The position numbers and the translations under genes were made by a program. Shown here piece by piece: positions 43,530-63,692 of a stretch of DNA of 64,000 nucleotides. The stretch is from Isoptericola peretonis. GTDB taxonomy: Bacteria > Actinomycetota > Actinomycetes > Actinomycetales > Cellulomonadaceae. Each line of letters starts with the position of its first letter. Positions within the stretch are counted from its first letter, which is position 1. The DNA is taken from positions 110,012 to 174,011 of the forward strand of contig JALQCY010000008.1 in the NCBI GenBank assembly GCA_023241745.1, in the 5' to 3' direction. The notes beneath the pieces are model-generated. The model ran no database searches. It saw only the letters and a list, made by a program, of their open reading frames with translations, and was not told where the DNA came from.

Positions 43530-43582
43530 CGGAATTGAGATTCTGTCTAGTGACATTAGCGGCGCGGCGGGGAGCCGGTCAA
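43530..43582 (-). promoter_or_regulatory. allE promoter with predicted IclR-type operator
   Basis: Minus-strand -35 TTGACC (43577-43582) and -10 TAATGT (43553-43558) are 18 bases apart; the -35 overlaps the end of the GNAT gene. Seven bases below the -10 lies CGGAATTGAGATTCTG (43530-43545), one of five CGGAA-N6-TTCCG-like palindromes in the window, covering the predicted transcription start. Confidence 0.65.
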
Positions 43583-44187
43583 GCCGCGCTCCCATCGTGC
43601 CCGGACACGACGACGCCGGCCCGGAACTCGTCCTCGAGGATGCTCATGACGACGGCGTCCGTCCAGCCCTTGCCGTCCCGGAAGGCGTCGCGCAGGCGCC
43701 CTTCCTCCCGGAAGCCGAGCGAGTCGTACAGCGCCCGCGCCCGCGGGTTGATGCTCATCACGGCAAGGCTCACCCGGTGCAGGCCGAGCCCGGCGTCCGA
43801 GGGCTGGAAGGCGAACCGCAGCACCTCGCCGATGGCCTCGCGCCCGTACCCGCGCCCTCGGTAGTCCGGCATCATGCGCAGGCGCAGGTGGGCCGAGCGC
43901 AGCTGGAGGTCCACCTGGTCGAGCGAGATCTCGCCGAGCAGGTCGTCGCTCACCGGCTCCCCGTCGCGCACGGCGGCGGACGTGATCGCCCAGTCGTACC
44001 GACCGGGCAGGTCCGCCGCCGTCGCCGCCCACACGTCGACCTCGGCGCGGGTCGAGGCCTCGCTGGTGCCCATCCCCGTCAGGCGCCCGCTGTCGGGGTC
44101 GCGCAGCGACGCCCACAGCCGGTCGGCGTCCCGCGCCTCGAGGGGGCGCAGGCGCACGAGCTCCCCGTGCAGGACGGGCGAGCGCAT
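43579..44187 (-). CDS. GNAT family N-acetyltransferase (RimJ/RimL type)
   Basis: A 202-residue acetyl-CoA-dependent acetyltransferase. It begins LHGELVRLRPLEARDADRLW, typical of RimJ/RimL-type GNATs, and has the acetyl-CoA pyrophosphate loop MMPDYRGRGYGREAIGEVLRFAF (Q/RxxGxG/A as RGRGYG) and the final VSLAVMSINPRARALYDSLGFREEGRLRDAF. Substrate cannot be deduced; relatives acetylate ribosomal protein termini, amino acids or antibiotics. Its ATG shares one base with the gatB stop (TGATG), so it is co-translated with the gatCAB operon. Confidence 0.9.
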   Translation of the reverse strand: MRSPVLHGELVRLRPLEARDADRLWASLRDPDSGRLTGMGTSEASTRAEVDVWAATAADLPGRYDWAITSAAVRDGEPVSDDLLGEISLDQVDLQLRSAHLRLRMMPDYRGRGYGREAIGEVLRFAFQPSDAGLGLHRVSLAVMSINPRARALYDSLGFREEGRLRDAFRDGKGWTDAVVMSILEDEFRAGVVVSGHDGSAA

Positions 44188-45692
44188 CAGCCGATCCTCT
44201 CCAGCACGAGCTCGCGGACGCGCTTGGCGTCCGCCTGCCCCTTCGTCGCCTTCATCACCGCACCGATGATGGCGCCGACCGGGCCCTGGTTGCCGCCGCG
44301 GACCTTCTCCACGATGTCCGGCTGCGCGGCCAGTGCGGCGTCGATGGCCTCCAGGAGCGGGCCGTCGTCGGAGACGACCTCGAGCCCGCGGGCCACCACG
44401 ACCTCCTCCGGGCCGCCCTCGCCGGCGAGCACGCCGTCGAGCACCTGCCGGGCGATCTTGTCGTTGATGCGACCGGAGTCGACGAGCTGCTGGAGCTCGC
44501 CGATCTGCGCGGGCGTGATCGCGAGGTCCGCGAGCTCGGCCTCCTCCTGCTTGGCCCGGCGGGCCAGCTCGCCCATCCACCACTTGCGGGCCGCGGCCGG
44601 CGTGGCCCCCGCGGCGACCGTCGCCTCGATGAGGTCGAGCGCGCCCGCGTTCACGACGTCGCGCATCTCCGCGTCCGCGAAGCCCCACTCGTCGTGCAGG
44701 CGCCGGCGCCGGGCCTGCGGCAGCTCGGGCAGCGTCGCGCGGATCTCCTCGACCCACTCCCGCGACGGGGCGACGGGCACGAGGTCCGGCTCCGGGAAGT
44801 ACCGGTAGTCCTCGGCGTCCGACTTCACGCGGCCGGGCGAGGTCGAGCCGTCCTCCTCGTGGAAGTGCCGGGTCTCCTGGATCACCGTCTCGCCGGCGTC
44901 GAGGATCGCCGCCTGGCGCGACACCTCGTACCGCACCGCCCGCTCCACCGAGCGGAAGGAGTTGACGTTCTTGGTCTCCGTGCGCGTGCCGAGCGGCGAC
45001 TCGGGCGTCGCGCGCAGGGAGAGGTTGACGTCGGCGCGGACGTTGCCGCGCTCCATGCGCGCCTCGGACACGTCGAGCACGCGGAAGATGTCGCGCAGCG
45101 CCTGCACGTAGGCGCGGGCCACCTCGGGCGCCCGCTCCCCCGCGCCGGTGATCGGCCGGGTGACGATCTCCACCAGCGGCACACCGGCGCGGTTGTAGTC
45201 GACGAGCGAGTACTCGGCGCCGTGGATGCGGCCCGCGGAGCCGCCCACGTGCGTGTTCTTGCCCGCGTCCTCCTCCATGTGCGCCCGCTCGATCTCGACG
45301 CGGTGCACCGTGCCGTCCTCGAGCTCGACGTCGAGCCAGCCGTCGAAGGCGATCGGCTCGTCGTACTGCGACGTCTGGAAGTTCTTCGGGACGTCCGGGT
45401 AGAAGTAGTTCTTCCGGGCGAACCGGCAGCTCTCCGCGATCTGGCAGTTGAGCGCCAGGCCGATGCGGATCGCGTACTCGACGGCGGTGCCGTTGACGAC
45501 GGGCAGCGCGCCCGGCAGGCCGAGCGACACCGGCGTGGTCTGCGTGTTCGGCTCGGCGCCGAACGACTGCTCGGCCGCGCAGAACATCTTGGTGCGGGTG
45601 CCGAGCTCGACGTGCACCTCGATGCCGATCACCGGGTCGTAGCGGCGCACGGCGTCGTCGTAGGCGACGAGAGCAGGGGTCGTGATGCTCAC
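44187..45692 (-). CDS. gatB: Asp-tRNA(Asn)/Glu-tRNA(Gln) amidotransferase subunit B
   Basis: A 501-residue subunit of the GatCAB complex that corrects Glu-tRNA(Gln) and Asp-tRNA(Asn) by ATP-dependent transamidation. Motifs are [28 protein letters not shown], the GatB signature [30 protein letters not shown] and EIVTRPI, and the C-terminal YqeY-like tRNA-binding tail ([39 protein letters not shown]). ATG 45692 has AAGGAGA upstream and begins 23 bases after the gatA stop. Confidence 0.97.
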
Positions 45693-45715
45693 AGCGATGG
45701 TCTCCTTCTCGTCCG

Positions 45716-47218: not shown

Positions 47219-47219
47219 C

Positions 47220-47516: not shown

Positions 47517-47607
47517 GGCCGCCAGTCTAGTGGTCGGCACATGTCCGGGAGGTTGTCCCCCCGTGACGGCACGGCTGCCCCCGCGGCGGACTAGACGGCA
47601 GACGAAA

Positions 47608-47698: not shown

Positions 47699-49285
47699 TC
47701 AGTCCATCCGCCCGTAGGCGGCCGTCGTGAGGAAGTCGATGTACTCGTCGGCGACGGCGACCTCGAGGAAGGTGCCGCGCGCCTCGGCGTAGTCGGCGGC
47801 GTCGCCCGGGAGCTTGGCCACCTCCTCCTCGACGATGCGGTCCACCAGCTCGCGCGTCACCTTCTCGCCCGTGTCGGCGAGGACGACGTCGTTGTGCAGC
47901 CACTGCCACACCTGCGACCGGGAGATCTCCGCGGTCGCGGCGTCCTCCATGAGGCCGAAGATGGCGACGGCGCCGAGCCCGCCCAGCCAGGCCTGCAGGT
48001 ACTGGATGCCGACCGACACGTTGCTGCGCAGGCCCGCCTCGGTGACGGTGCCCGGCGTCTTGTCCACGGACAGCAGGTCGGCCGCCGTCACGCGCACGTC
48101 GTCGCGGGCGCGGTCGATCTGGTTCGGCCGCTCGCCCAGCACCTCGGTGAAGACCTCCTTGCAGGTCTCGACCATGCCGGGGTGCGCCACCCAGGAACCG
48201 TCGAAGCCGTCGCCGGCCTCGCGGGCCTTGTCCGCGCGGACCTTGGCGAACGCCTGGGCGTTGGCCTCGGCGTCCTTGCTCGGGACGAACGCGGCCATGC
48301 CGCCGATCGCGTGCGCGCCGCGCTTGTGGCAGGTGGCCACGAGCAGCTCGGTGTACGCCCGCATGAACGGCACCGTCATCGTGATCTGGTTGCGGTCGGG
48401 CAGCAGGAACTCCGACCCACGGGTCCTGAAGTTCTTCACCACGGAGAAGAGGTAGTCCCAGCGCCCGGCGTTCAGGCCGGCCGAGTGCTCGCGCAGCTCG
48501 TAGAGGATCTCCTCCATCTCGAACGCGGCCGGGATGGTCTCGATGAGCACCGTGGCGCGGATGGTGCCGCGCGGGATGCCGAGCGCGTCCTGGGCGAGGA
48601 CGAAGGCCTCGTTCCACAGCCGCGCCTCGAGGTGCGACTCCATCTTCGGCAGGTAGAAGTACGGCCCGAGGCCCTTGGCGATCTGCCGCCGTCCCGCCGT
48701 CGCGACGTAGAGCGCGAAGTCGACGAGGCCGCCGGAGGTCTGCTCGCCGTCGACCAGCACGTGCTTCTCGTTCATGTGCCACCCGCGGGGGCGCACGATG
48801 ATGGTGGCGAGCTCCTCGTCGGGCCGGAGCGCGTACGTCTTGCCGGCCTCGTTGGTGAAGTCGATCCGGCGCTCGATCGCGTCGAGCAGGTTGAGCTGGC
48901 CGCCCACCACGTTGCGCCACTGCGGCGTGTTGGCGTCCTCCTGGTCCGCGAGCCATGTCTTCGCGCCGGAGTTGAGCGCGTTGACCGTCATCTTCCTGTC
49001 GGTGGGCCCGGTGATCTCGACGCGCCGGTCGACGAGGCCGGGGGCCGGGTCGGCCACCTTCCAGGAGTCGTCGGCGCGGATGTGCGCCGTCTGCGGCAGG
49101 AAGTCGAGCGTGCCGCCGTCGGCGAGCTCCTGGCGGCGGCGCTGCCGCGCGTCCAGCAGCTCGAGGCGCCGGGCACCGAGCTTCCGGTGCAGGGTCACGA
49201 TGAGGTCGAGCGCGGCCGGGGTGAGGACCTCGTCGTCGCGCTCACCGATCTCGGCGGTGATGGTCAGGCCGTCGGGGAGCTCCAC
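47699..49285 (-). CDS. aceB: Malate synthase A
   Basis: A 528-residue malate synthase condensing glyoxylate and acetyl-CoA to malate. The family signature is REHSAGLNAGRWDYLFSVVK (about residue 255), preceded by PRGTIRATVLIETIPAAFEMEEILYEL with the Mg ligands, and DRNQITMTVPFMRAYTELLV; the catalytic Asp region is in VGIQYLQAWLGGLGAVAIFGLMEDAATAEISRSQ. Length fits isoform A. GTG 49285 is preferred because AAGGAGGG sits about 6 bases upstream; ATG 49321 is a possible longer start. No isocitrate lyase is present, so here it likely disposes of glyoxylate from allantoin. Confidence 0.94.
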   Translation of the reverse strand: MELPDGLTITAEIGERDDEVLTPAALDLIVTLHRKLGARRLELLDARQRRRQELADGGTLDFLPQTAHIRADDSWKVADPAPGLVDRRVEITGPTDRKMTVNALNSGAKTWLADQEDANTPQWRNVVGGQLNLLDAIERRIDFTNEAGKTYALRPDEELATIIVRPRGWHMNEKHVLVDGEQTSGGLVDFALYVATAGRRQIAKGLGPYFYLPKMESHLEARLWNEAFVLAQDALGIPRGTIRATVLIETIPAAFEMEEILYELREHSAGLNAGRWDYLFSVVKNFRTRGSEFLLPDRNQITMTVPFMRAYTELLVATCHKRGAHAIGGMAAFVPSKDAEANAQAFAKVRADKAREAGDGFDGSWVAHPGMVETCKEVFTEVLGERPNQIDRARDDVRVTAADLLSVDKTPGTVTEAGLRSNVSVGIQYLQAWLGGLGAVAIFGLMEDAATAEISRSQVWQWLHNDVVLADTGEKVTRELVDRIVEEEVAKLPGDAADYAEARGTFLEVAVADEYIDFLTTAAYGRMD

Positions 49286-49323
49286 GACAGTCCCTCCTTG
49301 TTCTTGTCCTGCTGGTTGCATTG

Positions 49324-49339
49324 CGGAATCTTGCTTACG
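49324..49339 (-). promoter_or_regulatory. Predicted IclR-type operator upstream of aceB
   Basis: CGGAATCTTGCTTACG, a 16-bp imperfect palindrome of the CGGAA-N6-TTCCG type seen at four other catabolic promoters, with one more pairing base outside each arm. A TAGGGT -10-like hexamer lies at 49363-49368 on the minus strand; no good -35 is seen. Confidence 0.55.
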
Positions 49340-49383
49340 CCTGGTGAAAACTGCCTGATGGCACCCTAGCGGCTCGGGCCGGC

Positions 49384-49906: not shown

Positions 49907-51247
49907 TCAGGCCTCGCCGCGGCGCAGCAGAGTGCCGGTGGGCTCGTCGCCCACGTCGCGCCCCCGCAGCAGCGTGCGCCGCACCGTTCCCGTGAGGTCG
50001 CGGCCGGCGTACGGCGTGACCGGGTTCTTGTGGTGGAGCCGCGCCGGGTCGACGACGAACGTCGCGTCGGGCGCGAAGACCGCGAGGTCCGCGTCCTTGC
50101 CCACCGCGATGGCGCCCTTGCGCTCCAGCCCCACCAGGGCGGCCGGTCCGGCGGACATCCAGCGCACGACGTCGGCCAGGGGGACGCCGCGGCGGCGGGC
50201 CTCGGTCCAGACGACGGCGAGGCCGAGCTGCAGCGAGGCGACGCCGCCCCAGGCCTCGGCGAAGTCGCCCGACGCCGGCTCCTTGAGGTCGCGGGTGGCC
50301 GGCGAGTGGTCGGTGACGACGACGTCGATCAGGCCGTCGCGCAGGCCCTGCCACAGCCGGTCCTGGTTGTCCTGCTCCCGGATGGGCGGGCAGCACTTGT
50401 ACGCCGTGGCGCCGTCCGGCACGTGCTCGGCGTCCAGGGACAGGTAGTGCGGGCACGTCTCGACGGTGAGCCGCACGCCGTCGGCCCGCGCCGCGGCGAT
50501 CAGGGGCAGGGAGTCCGCGTCCGACAGGTGCAGCACGTGCGCGCGGGCCCCGGTGGCGCGGGCCGCGTCGATGAGCGCGGCGATGGCCGTGGACTCCGCC
50601 TTCGCAGGGCGCGAGGCGAGGAAGTGCCGGTAGTCGCGGCCCGCCCGCTGGGGGGCGTCCTCGAGCGTGCCGGGGTCCTCCGCGTGCACGATCATCAGCC
50701 CGCCGAACCGGGTCAGCTCGAGCAGGTCGGCGCGCAGCTCGTCGGCCTCGAGGTGGCCGAACTCCGGCACCCCCGAGTCGGCGAGGAAGCACTTGAAGCC
50801 GAACACGCCCGCCTCGTGCAGGTCCCGCAGCTCCGCCGTGTTGCCCGGCACCGCGCCGCCCCAGAAGCCGACGTCGACGAACGCCTGGTCCACGGCCCGC
50901 TGCTTCTTGACCTCGAGGTTCGCGACCGACGTGGTGGGCGGCAGCGAGTTGAGCGGCATGTCGACGATGGTCGTGACGCCGCCGGCGGCCGCGGCGCGTG
51001 TGGCGGTGGCGAAGCCCTCCCACTCGGTGCGGCCCGGCTCGTTGACGTGCACGTGCGAGTCGACCAGGCCGGGCAGCAGCACCTCGTCCTCGGCGAGCTC
51101 CAGCACCTCGGCACCCAGGAGCCCGGTGCCGAGCGGGACGACCGCCGTGATGCGGCCGGCGGTGACGCCGACCTCGACGGCGCGCTCGCCGTCGGGCGTC
51201 AGGGCGCGCGCGGCGCGGACGACGAGGTCGTGGGGGGCGGCGGTCAT
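49907..51247 (-). CDS. allB: Allantoinase
   Basis: A 446-residue amidohydrolase hydrolysing allantoin to allantoate. Metal-binding sequence [21 protein letters not shown] matches allantoinase ([16 protein letters not shown]), followed by [11 protein letters not shown] with the carboxylated-lysine position, [36 protein letters not shown], and [13 protein letters not shown] with catalytic Asp. This set distinguishes it from dihydroorotase and hydantoinase. It is the last gene of the hyi-glxR-gcl-glxK-allB operon; its ATG overlaps the glxK stop by 4 bases. Confidence 0.96.
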
Positions 51248-52488
51248 GCGTGCTCCATCTCGGTCGTCGCGGGGTTCGCGACGGGGTTCGTCACGGGGTT
51301 CGTCACCGGGTTCGTCACGGGCGTCGTGGCCTTCGCCGGCAGGTGGTCGGTGAGCCGCGCTGCGAGGGTCTCGAGCAGAGGCCCGGCCGCGGCGATGCAG
51401 CGGTCGACGTCGGGCTCGACGTCCGTGAGGGCGTGCACGGCCGTGATCCCGGCCGCCGCGGCCTGCTCGGGGCTCAGCGTGGTGCGGCCGCACACGGCCA
51501 CCGTGGGCACGCCCGCGGCGGCTGCCGCGGCCGCCACGCCCACGGGCGCCTTGCCGTGCAGGGACTGGTGGTCGAGGCTCCCCTCGCCGGTGACCACGAG
51601 GTCCGCCCCCGCCAACCGGTCGGCGAAGCCCGTGAGGGCGAGGACCTCCTCGACGCCCGGGCGGCGCTCGGCACCCAGCAGGAGGCACGCGAAGCCGACG
51701 CCGCCGGCCGCGCCCGCCCCGGGCGCGGCCGCGTACCCGCGGGCCCCCGTGACGCCGACCGTCGCGAGCACGTCCACCCACGTGGCCAGCCCCAGCTCCA
51801 GCTCGGCCACGGTGGACGGGTCGGCTCCCTTCTGCGGCCCGTACACGGCGGCGGCGCCGTGGTCGCCGAGCAGCGGGTTGTCCACGTCGCTCGCGAGCAC
51901 GATCTCCGTGTCCGCGAGCGCGGCGTGGAGGCCGGACAGGTCGACGTCGACAAGCTCGTGCAGGTGTCCCCCGCCGTCGGCCAGGTCGCCCGCGCCCGAG
52001 GCGAGCCGGGCGCCGAGCGCGGCGAGCATCCCGGCCCCGCCGTCCGTGCCGGCGGAGCCGCCGACGCCGACCACGATCTCCCGCACGCCGGCGTCCAGCG
52101 CGTGGGCGATCACCTCGCCGAGGCCGCGGGACGTCGCGGCGAGGGCCGTGGCGGGCGTCGGGGTCACCATCGCCAGCCCGCTCACGGCCGCCATCTCGAC
52201 GACCGCGGTGGCGCCGCGGCGGGCGTACCGGGTCGTCGCCGGCTCCCCGAGGGGCCCGGTCGCCACCAGGTCCACCGCCCTGAAGCCGGCGGCGAGGGCG
52301 GCCTCGAGGGTGCCCTCGCCGCCGTCGGCGACGGGGAGCTCGCAGGTGACGACACCGGGCACGGCCCGGCGCAGGCCGGCCGCCAGGTGCGCGGCCACCT
52401 CGCCCGCGGAGAGCGAGCCCTTGAACTTGTCGGGGGCCAGCAGCACGCGCGGCCCGCCCGCCGGCGCCGTCGTCGTGTCCGTGCTCAT
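51244..52488 (-). CDS. glxK: Glycerate kinase (GK-I/GlxK type)
   Basis: A 414-residue glycerate kinase that phosphorylates the glycerate made by tartronate semialdehyde reductase. Family motifs are [18 protein letters not shown] at the N terminus, [42 protein letters not shown], and [22 protein letters not shown]. The final 30 residues carry a TNPV/TNPVA repeat not typical for the family. ATG 52488 follows GGAGGCGAGCG; an in-frame upstream ATG is less well placed. Confidence 0.94.
51271..51318. repeat. Four tandem 12-bp repeats at the 3' end of glxK
   Basis: Units of GGGGTTCGTCAC repeat four times with small differences in the outer copies, in frame, encoding a TNPV-type tetrapeptide repeat near the GlxK C terminus. 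The repeat ends 24 bases before the allB start and may vary in copy number. Confidence 0.85.
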
Positions 52489-52556
52489 CGCTCGCCTCCC
52501 CCGGTCCCTCGTCGTCATCGTCCCTCCCCGTCGCCCTGGTCGTCGGGCGATGTCGT

Positions 52557-54344
<1,788 letters not shown>

Positions 54345-54389: not shown

Positions 54390-55268
54390 TCAGCTGCGGC
54401 CGGACAGGCGCGCGATCGCGTTGAACAGGCCGGAGTGGTCCAGCGAGCCGTCGCCCTCCGCGCGGGCCGCGGCCATGAGCTGCGCGACGACGGCGCCCAC
54501 GGGGGCGACGACGCCCTGCTCGCGGGCGGCGGACGTGAAGATGCCCAGGTCCTTGTGGTGCAGGTCGATGCGGAAGCCGGGGGCGAACTCGCGGCCCAGC
54601 ATCTTCCCGGCCTTCTGGTTCAGTACGGCGGAGCCGGCGAGGCCGCCGCCGAGCACAGTGACGGCCGCCTCGGTGTCCACGCCGAACGCCTCGAGAAAGA
54701 CGACGGCCTCGGCCAGCAGCGCGATGTTGCCGGCGACCATGAGCTGGTTCGCGGCCTTGACGGTCTGGCCGGAGCCGGAGGGTCCCACGTGCACGACGGT
54801 CTTGCCGACGACGTCGAACACCTCGGACGCGGCGGAGAAGTCCTCGGCGTCGCCGCCCACCATGATCGACAGCGCGGCGTTCTTCGCGCCCGCCTCGCCG
54901 CCGGAGACCGGCGCGTCGAGGTAGCGGAAGCCGGCGGCCCTGGCCTGCGCGGCCAGCTCGACGGTCACGTCCGGGCGGATCGAGGAGAAGTCGATGATCA
55001 GCGTGCCCGGCTGCGCGTTCGCGAGGACGCCGTCGTCCCCGGTGAGGACGCCCTCGACGTCCGGCGAGTCCGGCACCATGACGGCCACGACGTCCGCGGC
55101 CTTGACCGCCTCGGCGACGGAGGAGGCGGCCGTGCCGCCCGCCTCGACGAGGGGCCGGGCCTTGGCGGCCGTGCGGTTGTGGCCGACGACGGTGTGCCCG
55201 GCGTTCTGCAGGTGGACGGCCATCGGGCTGCCCATGATGCCGAGGCCGATGAAGGCGATGGTGCTCAT
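54390..55268 (-). CDS. glxR: 2-Hydroxy-3-oxopropionate (tartronate semialdehyde) reductase
   Basis: A 292-residue beta-hydroxyacid dehydrogenase reducing tartronate semialdehyde to D-glycerate with NAD(P)H. Rossmann motif FIGLGIMGSPMAVHLQNAGH, substrate-binding YLDAPVSGGEAGAKNAALSIMVGG, and catalytic lysine region GPSGSGQTVKAANQLMV are all present. The C-terminal helical domain includes FRIDLHHKDLGI. Located between hyi and gcl in one transcription unit, with 51- and 45-bp gaps. 3-hydroxyisobutyrate dehydrogenase is the main alternative, disfavoured by context. Confidence 0.93.
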   Translation of the reverse strand: MSTIAFIGLGIMGSPMAVHLQNAGHTVVGHNRTAAKARPLVEAGGTAASSVAEAVKAADVVAVMVPDSPDVEGVLTGDDGVLANAQPGTLIIDFSSIRPDVTVELAAQARAAGFRYLDAPVSGGEAGAKNAALSIMVGGDAEDFSAASEVFDVVGKTVVHVGPSGSGQTVKAANQLMVAGNIALLAEAVVFLEAFGVDTEAAVTVLGGGLAGSAVLNQKAGKMLGREFAPGFRIDLHHKDLGIFTSAAREQGVVAPVGAVVAQLMAAARAEGDGSLDHSGLFNAIARLSGRS

Positions 55269-55319: not shown

Positions 55320-56153
55320 TCAGGCGGCGGTGCCCCGGCCGCGCTGCTCGCGCGGGAGCCAGGCGAACGGGTCGGCGTCGCCCGAGGGCTCGGCCTTGTA
55401 CTCGAGGCCGACAGGGCCGGCGTAGCCGGCGGCGCGGAGGTCGCCGATCCAGCGCTGGATCGGCAGGTCCCCGCTGCCCGGGGCGCCGCGCCCGGGGGCG
55501 TCGGCGACCTGCACGTGGGCGATGCGGTCGCCGTAGGTCTTGAGGTCGAGGTCGACGTCCGAGCCGTTGACCGACAGGTGGTAGACGTCGAACAGCAGTC
55601 CGAGGTTCGTCGCGCCGTGCTCGTCGCGCACCCGGTCGAGGACGGCGACGGCGTCGGCGGACGTCGTCAGCGGGTACGCCGGGGCGCCGGAGACCGGCTC
55701 CACCAGCACCGTGCCGCCGATCCGCTCGACCGCCTGCGCGGCGAGCGCAAGGTTCTCCGCGCCGAGCGCGTCCTGGGCCGCCGGGTCCTCGCCCTCCACG
55801 CGGTTGCCGTACAGCGCGTTGAACGCGCGGCAGCCGGTGCGCTCGCCGATGCGGGCGACGACGTCGAGGTTGGCGCGCAGGTCCGCGGAGCGCTGCGGCC
55901 ACGAGACGAGACCGCGGTCGCCGCCCGGCATGTCACCTGCGTCGAAGTTGAGGCCCGTCAGCTGCACGCCGGCGTCGGCGAGGGCGGCGACGAACGCGTC
56001 GACCTCGTCGGCCGCGGGCGTCGGGGTCGCGAAGGGCCACCAGAACTCGACCCCGTCGAAGCCGGCCGCCTTCGCGGCCGCCGGGCGCTCCAGGAGCGGC
56101 AGGTCCGTGAGGAGGATCGAGCAGTTCACGGTGTAGGGGATCTGGTCCGTCAT
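55320..56153 (-). CDS. hyi: Hydroxypyruvate isomerase
   Basis: A 277-residue TIM-barrel sugar isomerase-like enzyme interconverting hydroxypyruvate and tartronate semialdehyde. Sequence features: YTVNCSILLTDLPLLERPAAAKAAGFDGVEFWWPF, LTGLNFDAGDMPGGDRGL, FNALYGNR, VLVEPVSG (metal Glu), LLFDVYHLS and HVQVADAPGRGAPGSGDLP, matching Hyi/GlxB1. First gene of the glyoxylate operon. ATG 56153 has GAAAGCGAG upstream; a promoter with a predicted operator is at 56175-56230. Confidence 0.93.
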   Translation of the reverse strand: MTDQIPYTVNCSILLTDLPLLERPAAAKAAGFDGVEFWWPFATPTPAADEVDAFVAALADAGVQLTGLNFDAGDMPGGDRGLVSWPQRSADLRANLDVVARIGERTGCRAFNALYGNRVEGEDPAAQDALGAENLALAAQAVERIGGTVLVEPVSGAPAYPLTTSADAVAVLDRVRDEHGATNLGLLFDVYHLSVNGSDVDLDLKTYGDRIAHVQVADAPGRGAPGSGDLPIQRWIGDLRAAGYAGPVGLEYKAEPSGDADPFAWLPREQRGRGTAA

Positions 56154-56174
56154 CGCTGACTCGCTTTCGCCAGA

Positions 56175-56230
56175 TGGAAGTTCTGTTCCTTGTGGTGAAA
56201 ACGCTACGCCGAGCCGGGCGGATCGGTCAA
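56175..56230 (-). promoter_or_regulatory. hyi operon promoter with predicted IclR-type operator
   Basis: Minus-strand -35 TTGACC (56225-56230) and -10 TAGCGT (56201-56206) with 18-bp spacing. The palindrome TGGAAGTTCTGTTCCT (56175-56190) begins 10 bases below the -10, overlapping the early transcribed region, as at allE and uraD. Confidence 0.65.
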
Positions 56231-56353: not shown

Positions 56354-57610
56354 TCAGGCCCCGACCGGGCGGGTCACCATCGCCGTGAGCTCCGCCGGCT
56401 GCAGGCCGACGCGCTCGACGATCTCCTCGGCACCCAGCGCGCCGCCGTCGACGCCGCGCTTGAGGAACCACGCCAGCGCCTTGGCGGTGGCGGGCTCGTC
56501 GAGCACCGCCCCCTCGACCCGGTTCACGTAGTTCGACAGGCGCTGGGCGGCCGGCTCGAAACCCTCCCGGTAGAAGGCGCAGGTGGCGGCGAACCGACTG
56601 GGCAGCTGGGCCGGGTGCAGGTCCCAGCCCTGGTAGAACCCGCGCTCCAGCGACCGGCGCACGAGCCGCCCGTGGTTGGCCCACGCAGCCCGCACCTGGG
56701 CGTCGTCGCCGACCGGCAGCACGTTCGTCGAGCCGTCGGACAGCCGAACCCCCGTGCCGGCCGCCGCGAGCTGCATGACCTCCTTGGCGAGGTCCGCCGC
56801 CGGGTGCTCCATCGACTGGTACGCGGCGGCGATGCCGAGCGACGCCGAGTAGTCGTACGTGCCGTAGTGCAGCCCGCTGACGCGACCGCCGCCGGCATGG
56901 ATCATCCGTGCCACCGTCGCCGTGCCCGCGGAGTCGAGGATCGACTGCGGCGTCTCGACCTGCACCTCGAAGCGCAGGCGCCCCGCGGGCAGGCCGTTGG
57001 CCTCCTCGAGCCGCTCGCACACCGCGACCATCGCCTCGACCTGCGCGACGGCGGTGACCTTCGGCAGGGTCAGGACGAGCCCCTCGGGGAGGTCCCCGGA
57101 CGCCGCCAGGGTGCTGACGAACACGTCCAGCGTCCGCAGCCCCCGGGCCCGCGTGAGCCTCTCGAAGCACTTGAACCGGATGCCGACGAACGGCGTGGCG
57201 GTCCCGGCGTCCAGCTCCGCCCGCAGCGCGAGGGCCGCCGCCGCCGCCACCTCGTCCTCCGCGGCGTCGGGGTGGGTGCCGTACCCGTCCTCGAGGTCGA
57301 TGCGCAGGTCCTCGATCGGTTCCACGGCGAGCTTGCGCTCCACCTGGGCCGCGACCGCCTCACGCAGGTCGGCCCGCACGCCGACCGCGTCGAGCAGCGC
57401 GTCCGTCCCCTGCGCGTCGAGGACGGCACGCGCCTGCGCGCCCCAGTCCCCGGCGAGCCCCGCGGTGTACCGGTGCGCCGGCACGTACACGGTGTGCACC
57501 GGCTGGCGCGTGCCGTCGTCCCCCGGGTAGGCCCGGTCGAGGTGGGCGTCGTGCGCGGAGAGCCGTCGCTCGACGGCCTCGAGAGTCGCCCGGTCGAGGG
57601 AGACCTTCAT
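56354..57610 (-). CDS. DUF6986 protein, HpcH/HpaI aldolase/citrate lyase superfamily
   Basis: A 418-residue protein related to citrate lyase beta/HpcH aldolases. VYVPAHRYTAGLAGDWG, DLRIDLEDGYGTHPDAAEDEVAAAA, GIRFKCFERLT, LTLPKVTAVAQVEAM, RLRFEVQVETPQSILD and LHYGTYDYSASLGIAA show the barrel with acidic Mg ligands (DLEDG, E of VET, D of YDYS). This looks like an active C-C lyase/synthase site. Its substrate is unknown. It overlaps the malic enzyme stop by 4 bases, and the operon shares the predicted IclR-type operator with glyoxylate genes, so a role in glyoxylate or malate metabolism is inferred. Confidence 0.85.
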   Translation of the reverse strand: MKVSLDRATLEAVERRLSAHDAHLDRAYPGDDGTRQPVHTVYVPAHRYTAGLAGDWGAQARAVLDAQGTDALLDAVGVRADLREAVAAQVERKLAVEPIEDLRIDLEDGYGTHPDAAEDEVAAAAALALRAELDAGTATPFVGIRFKCFERLTRARGLRTLDVFVSTLAASGDLPEGLVLTLPKVTAVAQVEAMVAVCERLEEANGLPAGRLRFEVQVETPQSILDSAGTATVARMIHAGGGRVSGLHYGTYDYSASLGIAAAYQSMEHPAADLAKEVMQLAAAGTGVRLSDGSTNVLPVGDDAQVRAAWANHGRLVRRSLERGFYQGWDLHPAQLPSRFAATCAFYREGFEPAAQRLSNYVNRVEGAVLDEPATAKALAWFLKRGVDGGALGAEEIVERVGLQPAELTAMVTRPVGA

Positions 57611-59088
57611 CGGGCCACCACCGTGGCCGCGTCCGCCTTCAGGGCCCGGCCCAGGTGCTGCGCCAGGTACTCCGCGTCGTCGGCGCGGTGCGCGGCCACG
57701 GGGACCTCCTTGACGCCCTCGGCGCGGACGGCGTCGGCGACGGCCTCGGCCACCCGGCTGTCGAACACGCCGGGGATGACGAACGCCGAGTTGAGCTCGT
57801 CGTCGCTCACCACCGAGGAGATCGCGACGGCGGCCACGCGCAGCATCTCGTCGGTGATCTGGGTGGCGCCCGCGTCGAGCAGGCCGCGGAACAGGCCCGG
57901 GAACGCCAGCACGTTGTTGATCTGGTTCGGGTAGTCGCTGCGGCCGGTGGCGACGACCGCGGCCGTCTCGCCCGCGGCGATCGGGTCGACCTCGGGCGTC
58001 GGGTTCGCGAGGGCGAACACGATCGCGTCGTCGGCCATCTTCGCCACGTCGGCGCCCGCCAGGATGTTGCCAGCCGAGACGCCGACGAAGACGTCGGCCC
58101 CGACCAGGCCCGCCTTGAGCGTGCCCGAGAAGCCGGACGGGTTCGTGTTCTCCACGATCCAGGCGCGGTTCTCGTCGCCGGCGGCCGACTCCGGGGTGAG
58201 CGCGCCGTGCCGGTCGAAGCCGATGATGTCCAGGGCGCCCTGCGCGAGCAGCAGGCGGATGATGGCGGACCCCGCGGCCCCGACCCCGGACACCGCGATG
58301 CGCACGTCCTCGATCTTCTTGCCCACCACCTTGAGCGCGTTGATGAGCGCGGCGAGCACCACGATGGCGGTGCCGTGCTGGTCGTCGTGGAAGACGGGGA
58401 TGTCGAGCTCCTCGCGCAGGCGCTTCTCGATCTCGAAGCAGCGCGGCGCGGAGATGTCCTCGAGGTTCACGCCGCCGAAGCCCGGCGCGATCGCCTTGAC
58501 CGTCCGGATGATCTCCTCGGTGTCGGTCGTGTCGAGGGCGATGGGCCACGCGTCGACGTCGGCGAACTGCTTGAACAGGGCCGCCTTGCCCTCCATGACC
58601 GGCATGGCGGCCGCCGGGCCGATGTCGCCCAGGCCGAGCACGGCGGTGCCGTCGGTGACCACCGCGACGGTGTTCCGCTTGATGGTCAGGCGGCGGGCGT
58701 CCTCCGGGCGGTCCGCGATCGCGAGGCAGACGCGGGCGACGCCCGGCGTGTACGCGCGCGACAGGTCGCGGCGCGTCTTGAGCGGCACCTTCGGGGTGAC
58801 CGAGATCTTGCCGCCGAGGTGCATGAGGAAGGTCGAGTCCGACATCTTCAGCACCCGCACGCCGTCGAGGGCGTCGAGCGCCGCGACGATCCGCTCGCCG
58901 TGCTCGGCGTCCACCGTGTCGCAGGTGACGTCCACGACGATCGTGTCCGCGTGCGACTGGGCGATGTCGACGCCCATCACCGAGCCGCCGGCCGTGGCGA
59001 TCTCGTGGACGATCTCGCTCGTCGCGCGCTGCGAGGCCGGCGCCTCGACGCGGAGGGTGATCGTGTAGCTGGGGCTGGGCATCGCCAT
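57607..59088 (-). CDS. NAD(P)-dependent malic enzyme with N-terminal ACT domain
   Basis: A 493-residue malic enzyme converting malate to pyruvate and CO2. Residues about 5-85 form an ACT-type domain (YTITLRVEAPASQRATSEIVHEIATAGGSV). Then the malic domain: YTPGVARVCLAIA (catalytic Tyr), VVTDGTAVLGLGDIGPAAAMPVMEGKAALFKQFADVDAWPI (catalytic Lys) and NLEDISAPRCFEIE (metal ligands); the Rossmann domain has VSGVGAAGSAIIRLLL. The ACT fusion suggests amino-acid control. ATG 59088 follows AAGGA. It is first of a two-gene operon and divergent from the IclR gene across a 106-bp gap with an operator-like site. Confidence 0.94.
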   Translation of the reverse strand: MAMPSPSYTITLRVEAPASQRATSEIVHEIATAGGSVMGVDIAQSHADTIVVDVTCDTVDAEHGERIVAALDALDGVRVLKMSDSTFLMHLGGKISVTPKVPLKTRRDLSRAYTPGVARVCLAIADRPEDARRLTIKRNTVAVVTDGTAVLGLGDIGPAAAMPVMEGKAALFKQFADVDAWPIALDTTDTEEIIRTVKAIAPGFGGVNLEDISAPRCFEIEKRLREELDIPVFHDDQHGTAIVVLAALINALKVVGKKIEDVRIAVSGVGAAGSAIIRLLLAQGALDIIGFDRHGALTPESAAGDENRAWIVENTNPSGFSGTLKAGLVGADVFVGVSAGNILAGADVAKMADDAIVFALANPTPEVDPIAAGETAAVVATGRSDYPNQINNVLAFPGLFRGLLDAGATQITDEMLRVAAVAISSVVSDDELNSAFVIPGVFDSRVAEAVADAVRAEGVKEVPVAAHRADDAEYLAQHLGRALKADAATVVAR

Positions 59089-59113: not shown

Positions 59114-59149
59114 CTGACTGAAGTTCCGAGATGTGGAAGAATGGTTTCT
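59114..59149 (+). promoter_or_regulatory. IclR-gene promoter with overlapping predicted operator
   Basis: Plus-strand -35 CTGACT (59114-59119) and -10 AAGAAT (59137-59142) are 17 bases apart. TGGAAGAATGGTTTCT (59134-59149), a more diverged member of the TGGAA-N6-TTCC family, overlaps the -10, suggesting autorepression and, because the gap is only 106 bp, possible joint control of divergent maeB. Confidence 0.5.
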
Positions 59150-59194
59150 GGAGCCGGCATCGGTTCACGACACTCGGCAGAGGGAGACATGACC

Positions 59195-59947
59195 ATGGCG
59201 AACGGCTCCGGAGTCCAGTCGGTGGACCGGGCGATCGACCTGCTCGAGATCATGACGGACCTCGGTGGCGACGCCGCGCTCAGCGAGCTGGCGGCGGCCG
59301 CGGGCCTCCCGCTCCCGACGATCCACCGGCTCATGCGGACGCTCGTCGGCAGGGGTTACGCCCGCCAGCTCCCGTCCCGCCGGTACACCCTGGGGCCGCG
59401 CCTGATCCGGCTGGGCGAGAGCGCCGGACGCCAGCTCGGCGCCAGCGCCCGCCCCCACCTGGAGCGCCTGGCCCGCGAGCTCGGCGAGAGCGCCAATCTC
59501 GCGATGATCGACCGCGACATGGTGGTCTACGTGGCTCAGGCCTCGTCGTCGCACTCGATGCGCATGTTCACCGAGGTCGGCCGGCGCGTCTACACGCACT
59601 GCACCGGCGTCGGCAAGATGGTGCTCGCCGAGCTGCCCGACCAGACCGTCCGGGACATCGTCGGCCGCGTCGGGATGCCGCCCGCCACCGACCTGTCCAT
59701 CACCGACGTGAACGACCTGATCACCGAGATCCGCACGATCCGCGAGCAGGGGTACGCCGTCGACGACGGCGAGCAGGAGATCGGCGTGCGCTGCTTCGCG
59801 GTGCCGGTGAAGGACGCGCCCACCCCGACCGCCCTGTCGATCTCGGGTCCCGCGGCACGCGTGACCTACGAGTTCGGCGAGGCCGCGCTCCCCCTGCTCC
59901 ACGAGGTGGCGGAGACCATCTCCAAGGAGCTGCTCTCCGCGGCCTGA
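59195..59947 (+). CDS. IclR-family transcriptional regulator (AllR-like)
   Basis: A 250-residue IclR regulator. Residues about 5-65 form the winged helix domain (SVDRAIDLLEIMTDLGGDAALSELAAAAGLPLPTIHRLMRTLVGRGYARQ); residues about 80-250 form the effector domain (LANLAMIDRDMVVYVAQASSSHSMRMFTEVGRRVYTHCTGVGKMVLAEL, GEQEIGVRCFAVPV), which resembles AllR, the glyoxylate/allantoin-sensing repressor. ATG 59195 has AGGGAG 8 bases upstream; ATG 59189 is too close to it. It lies in the middle of the purine region and is the obvious candidate to bind the five shared palindromes. Confidence 0.92.
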   Translation: MANGSGVQSVDRAIDLLEIMTDLGGDAALSELAAAAGLPLPTIHRLMRTLVGRGYARQLPSRRYTLGPRLIRLGESAGRQLGASARPHLERLARELGESANLAMIDRDMVVYVAQASSSHSMRMFTEVGRRVYTHCTGVGKMVLAELPDQTVRDIVGRVGMPPATDLSITDVNDLITEIRTIREQGYAVDDGEQEIGVRCFAVPVKDAPTPTALSISGPAARVTYEFGEAALPLLHEVAETISKELLSAA

Positions 59948-59976
59948 CGGCACGCGGTCCGGGCCGCGCACGGGGG

Positions 59977-61656
59977 TCACCCGTCCCCCGGGTCGCCGCG
60001 GCCGGCGTGCACCAGCTCGGCCGGCTCCCGGACGGCGGGACGCCCGGCGACGGCCGCGCGTGCTCCCTCACGGATCTGCAGCACGTCCGGCACGCCGTCG
60101 GCGTCGAGGTCGATCGCCGAGACGCAGCCCGAACGGCGGCCGTGCCCGTGGCGCACCCGCGCCCGTACGTCCGCGTTGAGGCGCGCCCGGCGCTGCTCCT
60201 CCTGCCGCTCGGCGTCGAGCCGCGCGAAGTACTCGGCCCGGCGCTGCTCCTGCTCCTCCGTGACGACGAGCCGCGCCGACGAGCCGGCCGTGAACACCGA
60301 CGGGTCCTTGCTCCGCCGGCCCCACCGGATCTCGTTGAAGACGAGGTTGAGCAGCACGGCCACCACAGCGGCCGCCGCGATCCCCGAGTGGAAGATCATG
60401 CCGACCCACGCCGGGAACTGGTCGTAGAAGTCGGGCACCGCGATCGGGATGACACCGAAGCCCAGCGCCACGGCGACGAGCGTCAGGTTGAGGTTGCCCT
60501 CGTACTCGACGCGCGAGAGCGTGCGGATCCCCGACACGGCCACCGAGCCGAACAGGACGATGCCGGCACCGCCGAGCACCGGCTCGGGGATGGCCGCCAC
60601 CACGCGGCCCAGCACCGGGAACAGGCCCAGCACGAACAGGACCGCGCCGCCCGCCGCGACCGCGAACCGGGAGCGGATCCCGGTGATCGCGACCAGGCCC
60701 ACGTTCTGCGCGAAGGCGGACGCCGGGAACGAGTTGAGGAAGGGGGCGACGAGCGTGGCTGCCATGTCGGCGCGCAGCCCGTCGCCGACGCGCTTCGCGT
60801 CCACCTCGGTGTCGAGCACCTCGCCGATGGCGATCAGGTCCGCGGTCGTCTCGGTCATGATCACGAGGATCACGATCGTCATCGAGAGGATCGCGCCGAT
60901 CTCGAAGACCGGCGCCCCGAACGCGAACGGCGTCGGCAGCTCGAAGACGCTGCCCTGACCCACCGCCGAGAAGTCCGCCAGGCCCAGGGGCAGCGCCACC
61001 ACGGTGCCGATGACGAGCCCGAAGAGGATGGACAGCCGGGAGATCGTGCCCTGCAGGAACCTGCTGAGCACGAGCACGACGGCCAGGGTGCCGAGGGCCA
61101 GCGTGAGGTTCGGCACCGAGCCCCAGTCGGCCGCGTCCTCGTCCCCGCCCATCATCCAGCCCGCCGCCGTCGGCAGCAGCGAGACGCCGATGATCGTGAT
61201 GATCGTGCCGGTGACCACGGGCGGGAAGAACCGCACGACCTGTGCGAAGAAGGGGGTGATCGCCAGGCCGATGGCCGCGGCCACGATGATCGCCCCGAAG
61301 ACGGCGGGCAGGCCGCCGTCCCCGCTCGCCACCGCGACCATCGTGGACACGGTGGCGAACGAGATGCCCTGCACCAGCGGGAGCTGCGACCCGAAGAAGC
61401 GGATGCCGAGCGTCTGGAGCGCGGTGGCCAGGCCGCTCACGAGCAGCGCCGCGGAGACGAGGACGCCGATCTGCGCACCGTCCAGCCCGGCCGCCTGCCC
61501 GACGATGATCGGCGGCGCGATCACGCCGCCGTACATCGTCATGATGTGCTGCAGGCCGTAGAGGAACGTCTTGCCGAGCGGGTACCGCTCGTCCTCCGGT
61601 CGACCGCCCTGCGGCAGGCCGGGCCGAGCCGCCGCGTCGATGGTCGTCGTGCTCAT
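59977..61656 (-). CDS. Uracil-xanthine/urate permease (NCS2 family)
   Basis: A 559-residue nucleobase:cation symporter of the NCS2 (UraA/PbuX/UacT) family with about fourteen helices. Motifs: YGLQHIMTMYGGVIAPPIIVGQAAGL, SQLPLVQGISFA, VIMTETTADLIAIGEVL (the family ETTAD signature carrying the substrate Glu), FLNSFPASAFAQNVGLVAITGI and a final FHSGIAAAAVVAVLLNLVFNE. The gene order suggests urate or xanthine as substrate. After the last helix, about 110 extra cytoplasmic residues include a charged helix and a DLDADGVPD loop resembling a calcium-binding motif, not usual in this family. ATG 61656 has AAGGAGC upstream; last gene of the uraD-led operon. Confidence 0.94.
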   Translation of the reverse strand: MSTTTIDAAARPGLPQGGRPEDERYPLGKTFLYGLQHIMTMYGGVIAPPIIVGQAAGLDGAQIGVLVSAALLVSGLATALQTLGIRFFGSQLPLVQGISFATVSTMVAVASGDGGLPAVFGAIIVAAAIGLAITPFFAQVVRFFPPVVTGTIITIIGVSLLPTAAGWMMGGDEDAADWGSVPNLTLALGTLAVVLVLSRFLQGTISRLSILFGLVIGTVVALPLGLADFSAVGQGSVFELPTPFAFGAPVFEIGAILSMTIVILVIMTETTADLIAIGEVLDTEVDAKRVGDGLRADMAATLVAPFLNSFPASAFAQNVGLVAITGIRSRFAVAAGGAVLFVLGLFPVLGRVVAAIPEPVLGGAGIVLFGSVAVSGIRTLSRVEYEGNLNLTLVAVALGFGVIPIAVPDFYDQFPAWVGMIFHSGIAAAAVVAVLLNLVFNEIRWGRRSKDPSVFTAGSSARLVVTEEQEQRRAEYFARLDAERQEEQRRARLNADVRARVRHGHGRRSGCVSAIDLDADGVPDVLQIREGARAAVAGRPAVREPAELVHAGRGDPGDG

Positions 61657-61696
61657 GTCGATGCTCCTTCGAACCGACTCCACGGAGTCTCGCAGA

Positions 61697-62641
61697 TCAG
61701 CAGAACCCCGTGACCGTGGCCCAGGCGCGCGGCTCCGCCGACGCGCCCTCCCGCTTCACCTCCGCCTCGATCTTGCCGTAGGGGCGGTCGGCCACGTAGA
61801 AGACCTCGTTGGGGTTCTCCAGGCCGAACGGCTCGAAGTCGACGACGAAGTGGTGCAGGTTCGGCATCGAGAACTTGATCTCGCCGATCTCCGGGTGCGC
61901 CTCGAGCACCCGCTTGCCCATCTGGTACAGGGTCTGCTGCAGCGCGAGGGAGTGCACGTCCGCGAACGTCTCGAGCAGGATGCGGCGCACGTCGTCGTAG
62001 ACGGCGTTGAAGTCGAGGTCGAGCGTGGTGTACCGCCAGCGGGCCGTCACCGACGTCGCGAGGATGCGGTCCGTGGTCTCCTGCAGCGTGGTGAACCGGT
62101 CCTTCGGGAAGCCGTGGAACTCGGAACCCGTCGACTTGAGGACCTTGAGGTCCTCCAGGCCCGAGACGACGAAGAGGTCGTCACCGTCGCGCTGGACCAC
62201 CGTGGTGCGCGTCTCCGTGCCGCCCTTGACGAACGCGTGGTCGTGCTCGCCGTCGGTCACGTTCGTCGACAGGGAGGAGGGGATGTGCTCCCAGGTGTAC
62301 TCCTTGGCCTCCCAGCGGCCGCCCTCGATCCACTCGAAGCTGGAGACGAAGTGCTCCGCGAGGCGGATCGCGAACTCCTCGGGAGAGGGGATGCCGTCCT
62401 TGGCGAGCCCGAAGATCGTGTTCTTCTGCGTGTCCGTGGGGACGACGCGCCCCTGGTCGCCGTCGATGTGCGCGGCGGAGAAATCGCCGCGCAGCTGCGA
62501 GGTCACCGACAGCTCGGTGATGCGGTGGCGCGCCTGGTCGCGGTCGACCTTCATGACGCGGACCTCGGCCTTGCCGTACTGGTTGTCCCCCAGCACGATC
62601 GTGCCGGTCGCGGCCTGGGCGTCGGTGGCGGTGGCGGTCAT
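61697..62641 (-). CDS. Urate oxidase (uricase)
   Basis: A 314-residue cofactor-free uricase oxidising urate to 5-hydroxyisourate with production of H2O2. Features: GDNQYGKAEVRVMKVDRD (catalytic Lys), VVPTDTQKNTIFGLAKDG with the catalytic Thr, EEFAIRLAEHFVSSFEWIEGG, LKSTGSEFHGFPKDRFTTLQET, ARWRY and MPNLHHFVVDFEPFGLENPNEVFYVADRPYG (substrate Phe/Gln region). ATG 62641 follows AAGGAGTCAGCC. It is third in the uraD-uraH-uricase-permease operon; the intermediate it releases is processed by UraH and UraD. Confidence 0.97.
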   Translation of the reverse strand: MTATATDAQAATGTIVLGDNQYGKAEVRVMKVDRDQARHRITELSVTSQLRGDFSAAHIDGDQGRVVPTDTQKNTIFGLAKDGIPSPEEFAIRLAEHFVSSFEWIEGGRWEAKEYTWEHIPSSLSTNVTDGEHDHAFVKGGTETRTTVVQRDGDDLFVVSGLEDLKVLKSTGSEFHGFPKDRFTTLQETTDRILATSVTARWRYTTLDLDFNAVYDDVRRILLETFADVHSLALQQTLYQMGKRVLEAHPEIGEIKFSMPNLHHFVVDFEPFGLENPNEVFYVADRPYGKIEAEVKREGASAEPRAWATVTGFC

Positions 62642-62767
62642 GGCTGACTCCTTCATCTGTTGGTGCGTTCGTCCCGCGGCCCGGAAGGGCCGGTCGGTAC
62701 GTCTCCTATGACGCTGACGCAAGCCGCGGCGCCTCTGCCGCGGCCGGTGATGCAGGCCCGAGGCCCG

Positions 62768-63106
62768 TCAGCTCCCGCGGTACGTCGAGTACGCGAACGG
62801 GCTGAGCAGGCAAGGCACGTGGTAGTGGTCGCGCCCCTCCTCGACGGTGAAGTCGATGGTGATCGACGGGTAGAAGGTCTCGACCCCCTTGCGGGCGAAG
62901 TAGTCGCCCGTCGCAAAGGTCACCCGGTAGGTACCGGGCCGCAGCGACTCCGGACCGAGGTCCTTCACGCGGCCGTCGTCGTCGGTGGTCGCCTCCGCGA
63001 TCCGCTCGGCGGCGTCGGCGCCGACCGACCACAGGGAGACGGCCACCCCCGCCGCGGGGACGCCCGAGACGGCGTCGAGCACGTGGGTGGTGATGTGCGA
63101 GGTCAT
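62768..63106 (-). CDS. uraH: 5-Hydroxyisourate hydrolase
   Basis: A 112-residue transthyretin-fold hydrolase acting on 5-hydroxyisourate to give OHCU. The start ITTHVLDAVSGVPAAGVAVSLW matches the family N-terminal signature (TTHVLD...G.PA), and the C-terminal tetrapeptide YRGS with HYHVPCLLSPFAYSTYRGS is the diagnostic HIUase ending with catalytic His and Arg. Its ATG overlaps the uraD stop by 4 bases. Confidence 0.97.
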   Translation of the reverse strand: MTSHITTHVLDAVSGVPAAGVAVSLWSVGADAAERIAEATTDDDGRVKDLGPESLRPGTYRVTFATGDYFARKGVETFYPSITIDFTVEEGRDHYHVPCLLSPFAYSTYRGS

Positions 63107-63606
63107 GAGAGCTCTCCTTCGAGGCGCAGGACGGCGATCTCCCGCAGCTGCTGGCCGGCGATCCGTCGTTCGGTGGCGGGGTCGTTCCCGAGCCGCTGCT
63201 CGAGCGATGCCAGGATCTCGTCGGCCGACCGGCCTGCCGCCCGGATGAGGAAGACATGGCCGAACCGCTCCTCGTAGGCGCGGTTCCCGGCCCGCAGCCG
63301 CTCCTCGACGGAGCCGCTGAGCTCACCGAGACCAGCCTGCTCCCGCCGCGAGTGCGCGGCGTCGGGGTCGTCCCCCGAGGCACGCTCACCGATCCGGGGG
63401 TGGCGGGCGAGCGCGGAGTCGATCTCCTCCTCGCTCCAGGGGTCGGCCGCGGTACGGGCAGCGACGAGAGCGGCCTCGGTGTCCGCGTAGGGACGGCCGG
63501 CGACGATCTCGTCGGCCCACCTCGCGACGGCGGCGCAGGACAGCACCTGCGCACGCGCGACGTCGACGTCCGCCGCGTTGAATGCCTCGAGACCTGCACT
63601 CGTCAT
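63103..63606 (-). CDS. uraD: 2-oxo-4-hydroxy-4-carboxy-5-ureidoimidazoline (OHCU) decarboxylase
   Basis: A 167-residue all-helical decarboxylase converting OHCU to (S)-allantoin. AFNAADVDVARAQVLSCAAVARWADEIVAGRPYADTEAL, LARHPRIGERA with catalytic His, AHSRREQAGL and YEERFGHVFLIRAAGRSADEILASLEQRLGNDPATER match the family closely. ATG 63606 follows AAGGAGGATCGCTCG. It is the first gene of the urate operon; the promoter and predicted operator lie at 63639-63692. Confidence 0.96.
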   Translation of the reverse strand: MTSAGLEAFNAADVDVARAQVLSCAAVARWADEIVAGRPYADTEAALVAARTAADPWSEEEIDSALARHPRIGERASGDDPDAAHSRREQAGLGELSGSVEERLRAGNRAYEERFGHVFLIRAAGRSADEILASLEQRLGNDPATERRIAGQQLREIAVLRLEGELS

Positions 63607-63638
63607 CGAGCGATCCTCCTTCGGGGAATTCCACCCAC

Positions 63639-63692
63639 CGGAAGCGGGTTTCCGTTCAGTGAAGTCTGACTCTCGGGGAGGCGGGCTGTCAA
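63639..63692 (-). promoter_or_regulatory. uraD operon promoter with predicted IclR-type operator
   Basis: Minus-strand -35 TTGACA (63687-63692, full consensus) and -10 CAGACT (63663-63668) with 18-bp spacing. Eight bases below the -10 is CGGAAGCGGGTTTCCG (63639-63654), the most symmetric member of the shared palindrome family, covering the predicted transcription start. Confidence 0.7.

Follow-up and report, generated by a model that had tools for sequence, protein, structure and literature searches.

Among the described relatives of the regulator studied here, AllR of Streptomyces coelicolor is reportedly a repressor of allantoin genes, and its DNA binding is reported to be inhibited by allantoic acid and to a lesser degree by glyoxylate. 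The work on this protein (Navone et al., 2015, AEM 81:6649) is cited in PMC12772271. BhcR of Paracoccus denitrificans, another member of the IclR family, controls the beta-hydroxyaspartate cycle, and its DNA binding is weakened by glyoxylate, according to PMC11323563. In the main text of a family-wide comparison, three-box motifs were reported in 32 orthologous groups and tandem sites 18-22 nt apart in 94, the latter spacing being tied to tetramers (Suvorova et al., 2021, PMC8222616). Here we analyzed a window of 64,000 nt (the whole stretch of DNA under study) of Isoptericola peretonis, whose genome (G000) measures 4.47 Mb. An initial annotation of this window had described a 16-bp palindrome, YGGAA-N6-TTNCK, at five purine and glyoxylate promoters and assigned it to the IclR-family protein encoded at 59195..59947 (+ strand). 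Our results suggest, with a probability of roughly 0.8, that this protein is a repressor of the actinobacterial AllR type in charge of a purine-to-glyoxylate regulon, which would sit as a tetramer on 36-bp operators and be released by glyoxylate.

All five 16-mers were found in place. The fourth site (59134, in the gap between maeB and iclR) had been said to deviate from the consensus; it matches exactly, and the deviant is the allE site, CGGAATTGAGATTCTG, with one mismatch. As a shared element the palindrome is present, but it makes up only the two inner boxes of a 36-bp operator of the form TTYCR-N5-YGRAA-N6-TTYCR-N5-YGRAA, which consists of two IclR dyads with their centres, and equivalent boxes, 21 bp apart. 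The palindrome as the whole operator was rejected because it is unspecific genome-wide (18 distinct exact sites) and because the outer boxes are conserved. Compared with the motifs in the main text of Suvorova et al. (2021, PMC8222616), the outer-inner pair equals their group 1 and the inner pair resembles their group 2, and the centres 21 nt apart fall into their tandem class. The operators of this cluster differ in having all four boxes at a fixed 5-6-5 spacing; the term "four-box" is absent from that main text.

The four-box anatomy emerged from 60 distinct target sites of the I. peretonis and related genomes, taken as the best inner palindromes with at most two mismatches (iclR-oriented rows excluded), and from 356 non-target look-alikes drawn from the window, the relatives and other stretches of the I. 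peretonis genome. The 60 sites were picked by the inner palindrome alone and the outer boxes played no part in the choice; all four boxes are visible in the information profile of the target sites. A downstream YGGAA (at least four of five letters) stood at a gap of 5 in 46 of the 60 target sites versus 10 of the 356 look-alikes, and an upstream TTCCR stood at a gap of 5 in 23/60 versus 13/356, counts that come from related sequences and are not independent. All other gaps from 0 to 15 gave at most five outer-box matches on either side among the target sites. The relatives' loci were fetched by the regulator protein alone (the best 80 of 559), and in them the 5-6-5 spacing, with up to two mismatches, gave 90 matches in 71 of the 80 loci, with ten matches for the 24 other spacings together (outer gap 3-7, inner gap 4-8). 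Of these 90, 86 were located no more than 260 bp ahead of iclR, hyi, uraD, aceB or maeB (56 at iclR alone). The remaining four correspond to one conserved place in Promicromonospora, upstream of a lactate-permease-family gene.

Within the window, the operators of the hyi operon (56165..56200, - strand) and the uraD operon (63629..63664, - strand) have one mismatch each to the four-box form and are conserved in the genus. Two mismatches were counted at allE (43520..43555, - strand; the 16-mer 43530-43545 is its middle) and in the divergent maeB/iclR gap (59124..59159, no strand assigned), the latter being conserved in the genus as well. In gene orientation, an extra YGGAA follows exactly 5 bp past the palindrome at allE, maeB, uraD and a second xanthine permease, and CGAAA does so at hyi. 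At aceB (49314..49349, - strand), the gene-side outer box is degenerate and unclear, and an additional box, TTTCA-N5, stands on the opposite, promoter side. The -35/-10 pairs with 18-bp spacing at allE, hyi and uraD were confirmed, the distance from the -10 hexamer to the palindrome behind it being 7, 10 and 8 bp (by eye); the full operator starts within or right after this hexamer (by eye), over the predicted transcription start.

A sixth site lies outside the window (C10:628534-628559 of the I. peretonis genome; L114 12535-12560) and is a perfect three-box operator. It belongs to the second xanthine permease gene, which comes after an 8-oxoguanine deaminase gene. The three-box pattern with at most one mismatch had three matches in the I. 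peretonis genome, all at purine promoters. Other candidates were discarded. The site C10:236264 was dropped: its 17.6 bits under the relatives matrix compare with 18.5 bits for a non-target place in the window (at 16885). C14:630613 stands ahead of the gene for a third NCS2 permease and has two mismatches to the three-box pattern; it was rejected because its middle box is broken in G011, where the site is otherwise kept, and because similar letters precede the gene in some regulator-less genomes (by eye). C10:182832 stands between MFS and TetR genes and would more likely be a TetR operator.

How specific the short pattern is depends on the scale. In the window, YGGAA-N6-TTNCK had five exact matches at four distinct sites (uraD on both strands), versus a mean of 0.30 and a maximum of 3 in 100 shuffled windows. 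With one mismatch allowed, no enrichment was seen in the window (18 matches versus 13.2 expected), and the allE site is therefore supported by its conservation and the longer motif. Across the genome, 22 rows represented the 18 distinct exact sites, and the reversed control pattern gave 3 rows. Four of the 18 lie in the purine/glyoxylate cluster, one at another purine gene and 13 elsewhere, including five inside an open reading frame (rough calls) and three in hairpin repeats (by eye). The stricter YGGAA-N6-TTCCR had 12 distinct exact sites genome-wide versus about 6 under an independent-base model. By eye, three loci of the same genome (L004, L007 and L008; C10:465785, 732280 and 820775) are intergenic hairpins that have GGAA-N6-TTCC as their core, are assembled from recurring units like "cgagatagagaacc" and mimic the operator pattern.

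The window was scanned with matrices free of I. peretonis sequences. The relatives matrices were built from 54 distinct sites with the genus included or from 46 outside it. A Streptomyces-group matrix came from the iclR promoters of loci L042-L098 having at most one mismatch (41 of 57 rows, 31 sequences, one of them from Phytoactinopolyspora), and it was rebuilt without the Phytoactinopolyspora sequence from 29-30 distinct allR promoters. By best strand, each of them put exactly the five promoters on top in the window. The Streptomyces-only matrix scored the five sites at 26, 23, 21, 17 and 8 bits, with the next place at about -4; their order was the same with the 31-sequence matrix. With the 46 outside-genus sites, the five scored 22.3-36.8 bits and the next place 15.3. 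The maeB/iclR site is weak under the Streptomyces matrices: there, four sites (at least 17 bits) are significant and this one alone is not. Because the inner palindrome had served to pick the training sites, the support from the held-out test goes mainly to the flanks, the outer boxes and the places chosen.

Conservation in orthologous promoters was followed in 18 genomes of the genus. Five of them are regulator-bearing, that is, they have allE, an AllR-type protein (at least 88% identity) and, each at 90% identity or more, an aceB orthologue and the second permease; they were compared with the other 13. The promoter comparison was restricted to rows of at least 59% identity, which left out four aceB paralogues that were checked separately; a second one used rows above 68% identity and N-terminally anchored matches only. 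The sites were kept in 5/5 regulator-bearing genomes: in all six promoters, that of the second permease included, the palindrome has no more than two mismatches to YGGAA-N6-TTCCR. The flanks drift and the box letters stay, down to promoter-specific defects such as CAGAA at 5/5 allE promoters and a CGTAA inner box at 5/5 aceB promoters. At allE the palindrome has one mismatch in all five. None of the 17 second aceB genes in the genus (13 + 4 checked) had the palindrome with one mismatch or less; one of the 13 has a two-mismatch match.

In the same 18 genomes, the three-box pattern with at most one mismatch was found 44 times, 25 times in the five regulator-bearing genomes and 19 times in the other 13. 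By coordinates, 22 of the 25 are on target promoters, and one of the 19 is target-like; two recurring strings account for 10 and 3 of these 19. A recurring string, CGGAAGTGCTCGTCCAT...CGGAA, fits the three-box pattern in the mostly regulator-less genomes G001, G003, G005, G007-G010, G012 and G014-G016, and it is probably within a conserved gene. Perfect three-box matches numbered ten in the genus, eight of them in the five regulator-bearing genomes, at promoters of uraD or permease genes. One in G008 is inside an open reading frame (rough calls), and one in G006 is upstream of hyi-like, glxR and 2-hydroxyacid dehydrogenase genes (L254), about 3 kb from a 56% regulator homologue; allE was not found in G006. 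Outside the genus, in loci L023-L041, the palindrome with at most one mismatch was present at 18/19 iclR, 7/8 uraD and 6/9 maeB promoters. Four Promicromonospora loci (L029, L032, L033 and L037) have iclR, aceB and glycolate oxidase-like genes, then the four-box operator before the lactate-permease-family gene. Annotation of the glycolate oxidase-like genes comes from L032 only, with GlcF at 333.6 bits (cut-off 333) and a GlcD/GlcE-like match below the cut-off.

The regulator is an IclR-family protein, with HTH_IclR and IclR_C matches of 62.2 and 133.5 bits, over the cut-offs. It is 88-96% identical to the proteins of four species of the Isoptericola/Krasilnikoviella group (L019-L022; by contig coordinates these appear to correspond to G004, G011, G014 and G002 of the genus), 60.9 and 62.7% identical to two aligned Streptomyces proteins and, among the best 80 of 559 loci, 60-64% identical to many Streptomyces proteins. 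These Streptomyces relatives lie near aceB in most of the loci covered, and their operator form is the same according to the Streptomyces-only matrix. Relative to S. coelicolor AllR, the operator-bearing units here include the uric acid operon, maeB-DUF6986 and the second xanthine permease. A helix-turn-helix stretch, PLPTIHRLMRTLV, is identical in all six aligned actinobacterial proteins. By identity (27.6%) and by score (92.1 bits with the equivalog NF007548, cut-off 406), the protein is not an orthologue of Escherichia coli AllR, and the "AllR-like" label of the initial annotation fits only the actinobacterial AllR group, of which it is a probable member. The E. coli AllR sites at allS-allA and gcl read GGAA-N5-TTCC, whereas the operators of this cluster have N6, and a scan of three E. 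coli stretches turned up no four-box match below four mismatches. The protein shares its family with E. coli IclR (31.6% identity). It also shares it with TtgV, a multidrug-binding repressor that a PDB search matched by sequence (2xrn and 2xro, TtgV bound to its operator, reportedly as a tetramer on DNA). The best NCBIfam model was BhcR (NF045644), at 174.7 bits and below the cut-off of 350. Of the residues listed in PMC11323563 as ligands of the glyoxylate oxygens in E. coli IclR, four of five are kept (G160, D212, S239 and S241), and A161 is replaced by Val; in that source the residue is Ile in BhcR and Ala in E. coli IclR.

We propose that the regulator would sit as a tetramer of two dimers on the 36-bp operator, each dimer on one TTYCR-N5-YGRAA dyad, and that the 21-bp distance between dyads would put the two dimers on one helix face. 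The bound tetramer would cover the transcription start at allE, hyi and uraD and stop RNA polymerase from initiating there. Purine breakdown would raise glyoxylate, which would enter the C-terminal pocket and make the protein let go of the DNA. Release would turn on together the permeases, the breakdown of uric acid and allantoin, and the disposal of glyoxylate by the carboligase route and by malate synthase with malic enzyme. The site in the maeB/iclR gap would provide autoregulation. The five-promoter regulon of the initial annotation, with its regulator inside, holds as far as the conserved sites, the Streptomyces regulator-promoter match and the overlap with the predicted start at three promoters go, and it has to be extended by the sixth target outside the window; binding and regulation are predicted from these comparisons.

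Several observations weigh against this reading. The sites were first chosen by the inner palindrome, relatives included, and the inner boxes are partly selected in this way. The aceB site has four mismatches to the four-box pattern, and at two mismatches the three-box pattern is barely specific (31 matches in the I. peretonis genome versus 22 with the control pattern, its reverse). Under the Streptomyces matrices, the 7.7-8.1 bits of the maeB/iclR site are within reach of the best of 20 shuffled windows (7.2-8.5). A non-target place, 16885-16922, beat the shuffles with two matrices (18.5 versus at most 13.3 bits, and 15.3 versus at most 14.9). Outside the genus, the palindrome with at most one mismatch is unevenly present in L023-L041 (4/8 hyi, 2/5 second permease, 3/13 aceB and 0/4 allE promoters), and 16 of the 57 iclR promoters in L042-L098 are without it. 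The I. peretonis genome has nine further IclR-family matches at 28-35% identity, and the motif class may be common to one of them. In the pocket, the pyruvate patch differs from that of IclR at three of four residues (L143S, L154V and L220V). The place at 16885-16922 precedes a LeuA-type gene and has four mismatches to the four-box form; we regard it as a chance match.

The initial annotation had cited glyoxylate or allantoin as releasing E. coli AllR. For the regulator studied here, our comparison favours glyoxylate as the probable effector, as the regulator and operator adjoin glycolate- or glycerate-type genes elsewhere. With the same repressor and operators, the inducer could be allantoate (or allantoin), glyoxylate being weak or irrelevant, and the response reported for S. 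coelicolor AllR and the hydrophobic pocket patch unlike that of IclR speak for this; we nevertheless consider it rather unlikely. In Promicromonospora, the regulator and operator occur with malate synthase, glycolate oxidase-like genes and the lactate-permease-family gene, and in G006, where allE was not found, the 56% homologue stands with hyi-like and glxR genes; glyoxylate is the metabolite common to both settings. Both cases are short stretches beside the regulators, and purine genes are possible elsewhere in these genomes.

Other readings concern the regulator's sign and identity. It could act as an activator or a dual regulator, as proposed for BhcR in PMC11323563, BhcR being its best NCBIfam model; this seems improbable, given that the operators of allE, hyi and uraD start inside the -10 hexamer or just behind it, the usual place of a repressor. 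That another IclR paralogue owns the sites and the cluster protein binds elsewhere would be in line with the nine paralogues and with motif classes being common within the family (main text of PMC8222616). Against this stand the loci picked by the cluster regulator alone (the best 80 of 559), of which 71 carry a four-box site, most often at the regulator's own promoter, and the helix-turn-helix stretch that is the same in six actinobacterial proteins, and we judge it very unlikely. To chance or compositional palindromes we give practically no credence: the frequency of the 16-bp pattern genome-wide and the lack of enrichment of its one-mismatch form in the window would agree with them, but held-out matrices, spacing controls and conservation contradict chance for the set as a whole.

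Judged from family scans, the genes under these operators cover the greater part of a pathway that leads from uric acid to glyoxylate and then to glycerate or to malate/pyruvate. All are on the - strand except iclR. The uraD operon comprises uraD (OHCU decarboxylase, 63103..63606), hiuH (hydroxyisourate hydrolase of the transthyretin family, 62768..63106), uox (urate oxidase, 61697..62722) and a xanthine-permease-family transporter (59977..61683). The hyi run starts with hyi (hydroxypyruvate isomerase-like, 55320..56153; 227 bits versus an equivalog cut-off of 353) and continues with glxR (tartronate semialdehyde reductase, 54390..55268), gcl (glyoxylate carboligase, 52557..54344), glycerate kinase (51244..52545) and allB (allantoinase, 49907..51244), the last four over their cut-offs. 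Among the other units, aceB (malate synthase A, 47699..49288) is over its cut-off, and allE ((S)-ureidoglycine aminohydrolase, 42643..43476) additionally passes the cut-off set for a bifunctional allantoicase/ureidoglycine aminohydrolase model. For allantoate hydrolysis, no AllC match was found in the I. peretonis genome, and hydantase matches were below the cut-off only; this step may be carried out by AllE or by an enzyme of another kind.

Opposite iclR, maeB (malic enzyme, 57607..59088) has malic domains over the cut-offs and an N-terminal ACT-like match below it, and its stop overlaps the start codon of the gene for a DUF6986 protein (HpcH/HpaI-like, 56354..57610). DUF6986 was matched in 14 loci, and 11 of these entered an alignment with the protein of the window (L027, L030 and L034 were excluded for cut or over-long reading frames). 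Identities were 56-92%, and a DLR-x-D-x-EDG stretch that resembles HpcH/HpaI-type enzymes is invariant. No PDB relative was found by sequence (E up to 1), and the literature searched contained no mention of the family. We consider DUF6986 a candidate glyoxylate-using enzyme.

Neither the regulator type nor the operator class is new, and the same goes for most of the logic of the regulon. Our literature search found no description of the strict four-box form, of the sixth target, or of a maeB-DUF6986 or uric acid operon under AllR-type control, which is weak evidence as the key Streptomyces paper was outside its coverage. What began as a motif spotted by eye can now be tested as a predicted regulon whose 36-bp operator is defined, and which links malate synthase, malic enzyme and DUF6986, an uncharacterised family, with the disposal of glyoxylate in actinobacteria. 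Its 5-6-5 spacing and 21-bp period offer a natural operator set for trying the tetramer model of the IclR family. More speculatively, this actinobacterial IclR group might be a general glyoxylate switch rather than an allantoin regulator, one regulator and its 36-bp four-box operator being reused in each lineage for the local route of glyoxylate formation or use, for purines here, for glycolate oxidation in Promicromonospora and for glycerate-type genes in G006. DUF6986 might then be a glyoxylate-using enzyme of the HpcH/HpaI kind, and the conserved box defects at allE (CAGAA) and aceB (CGTAA) might set the order of induction.

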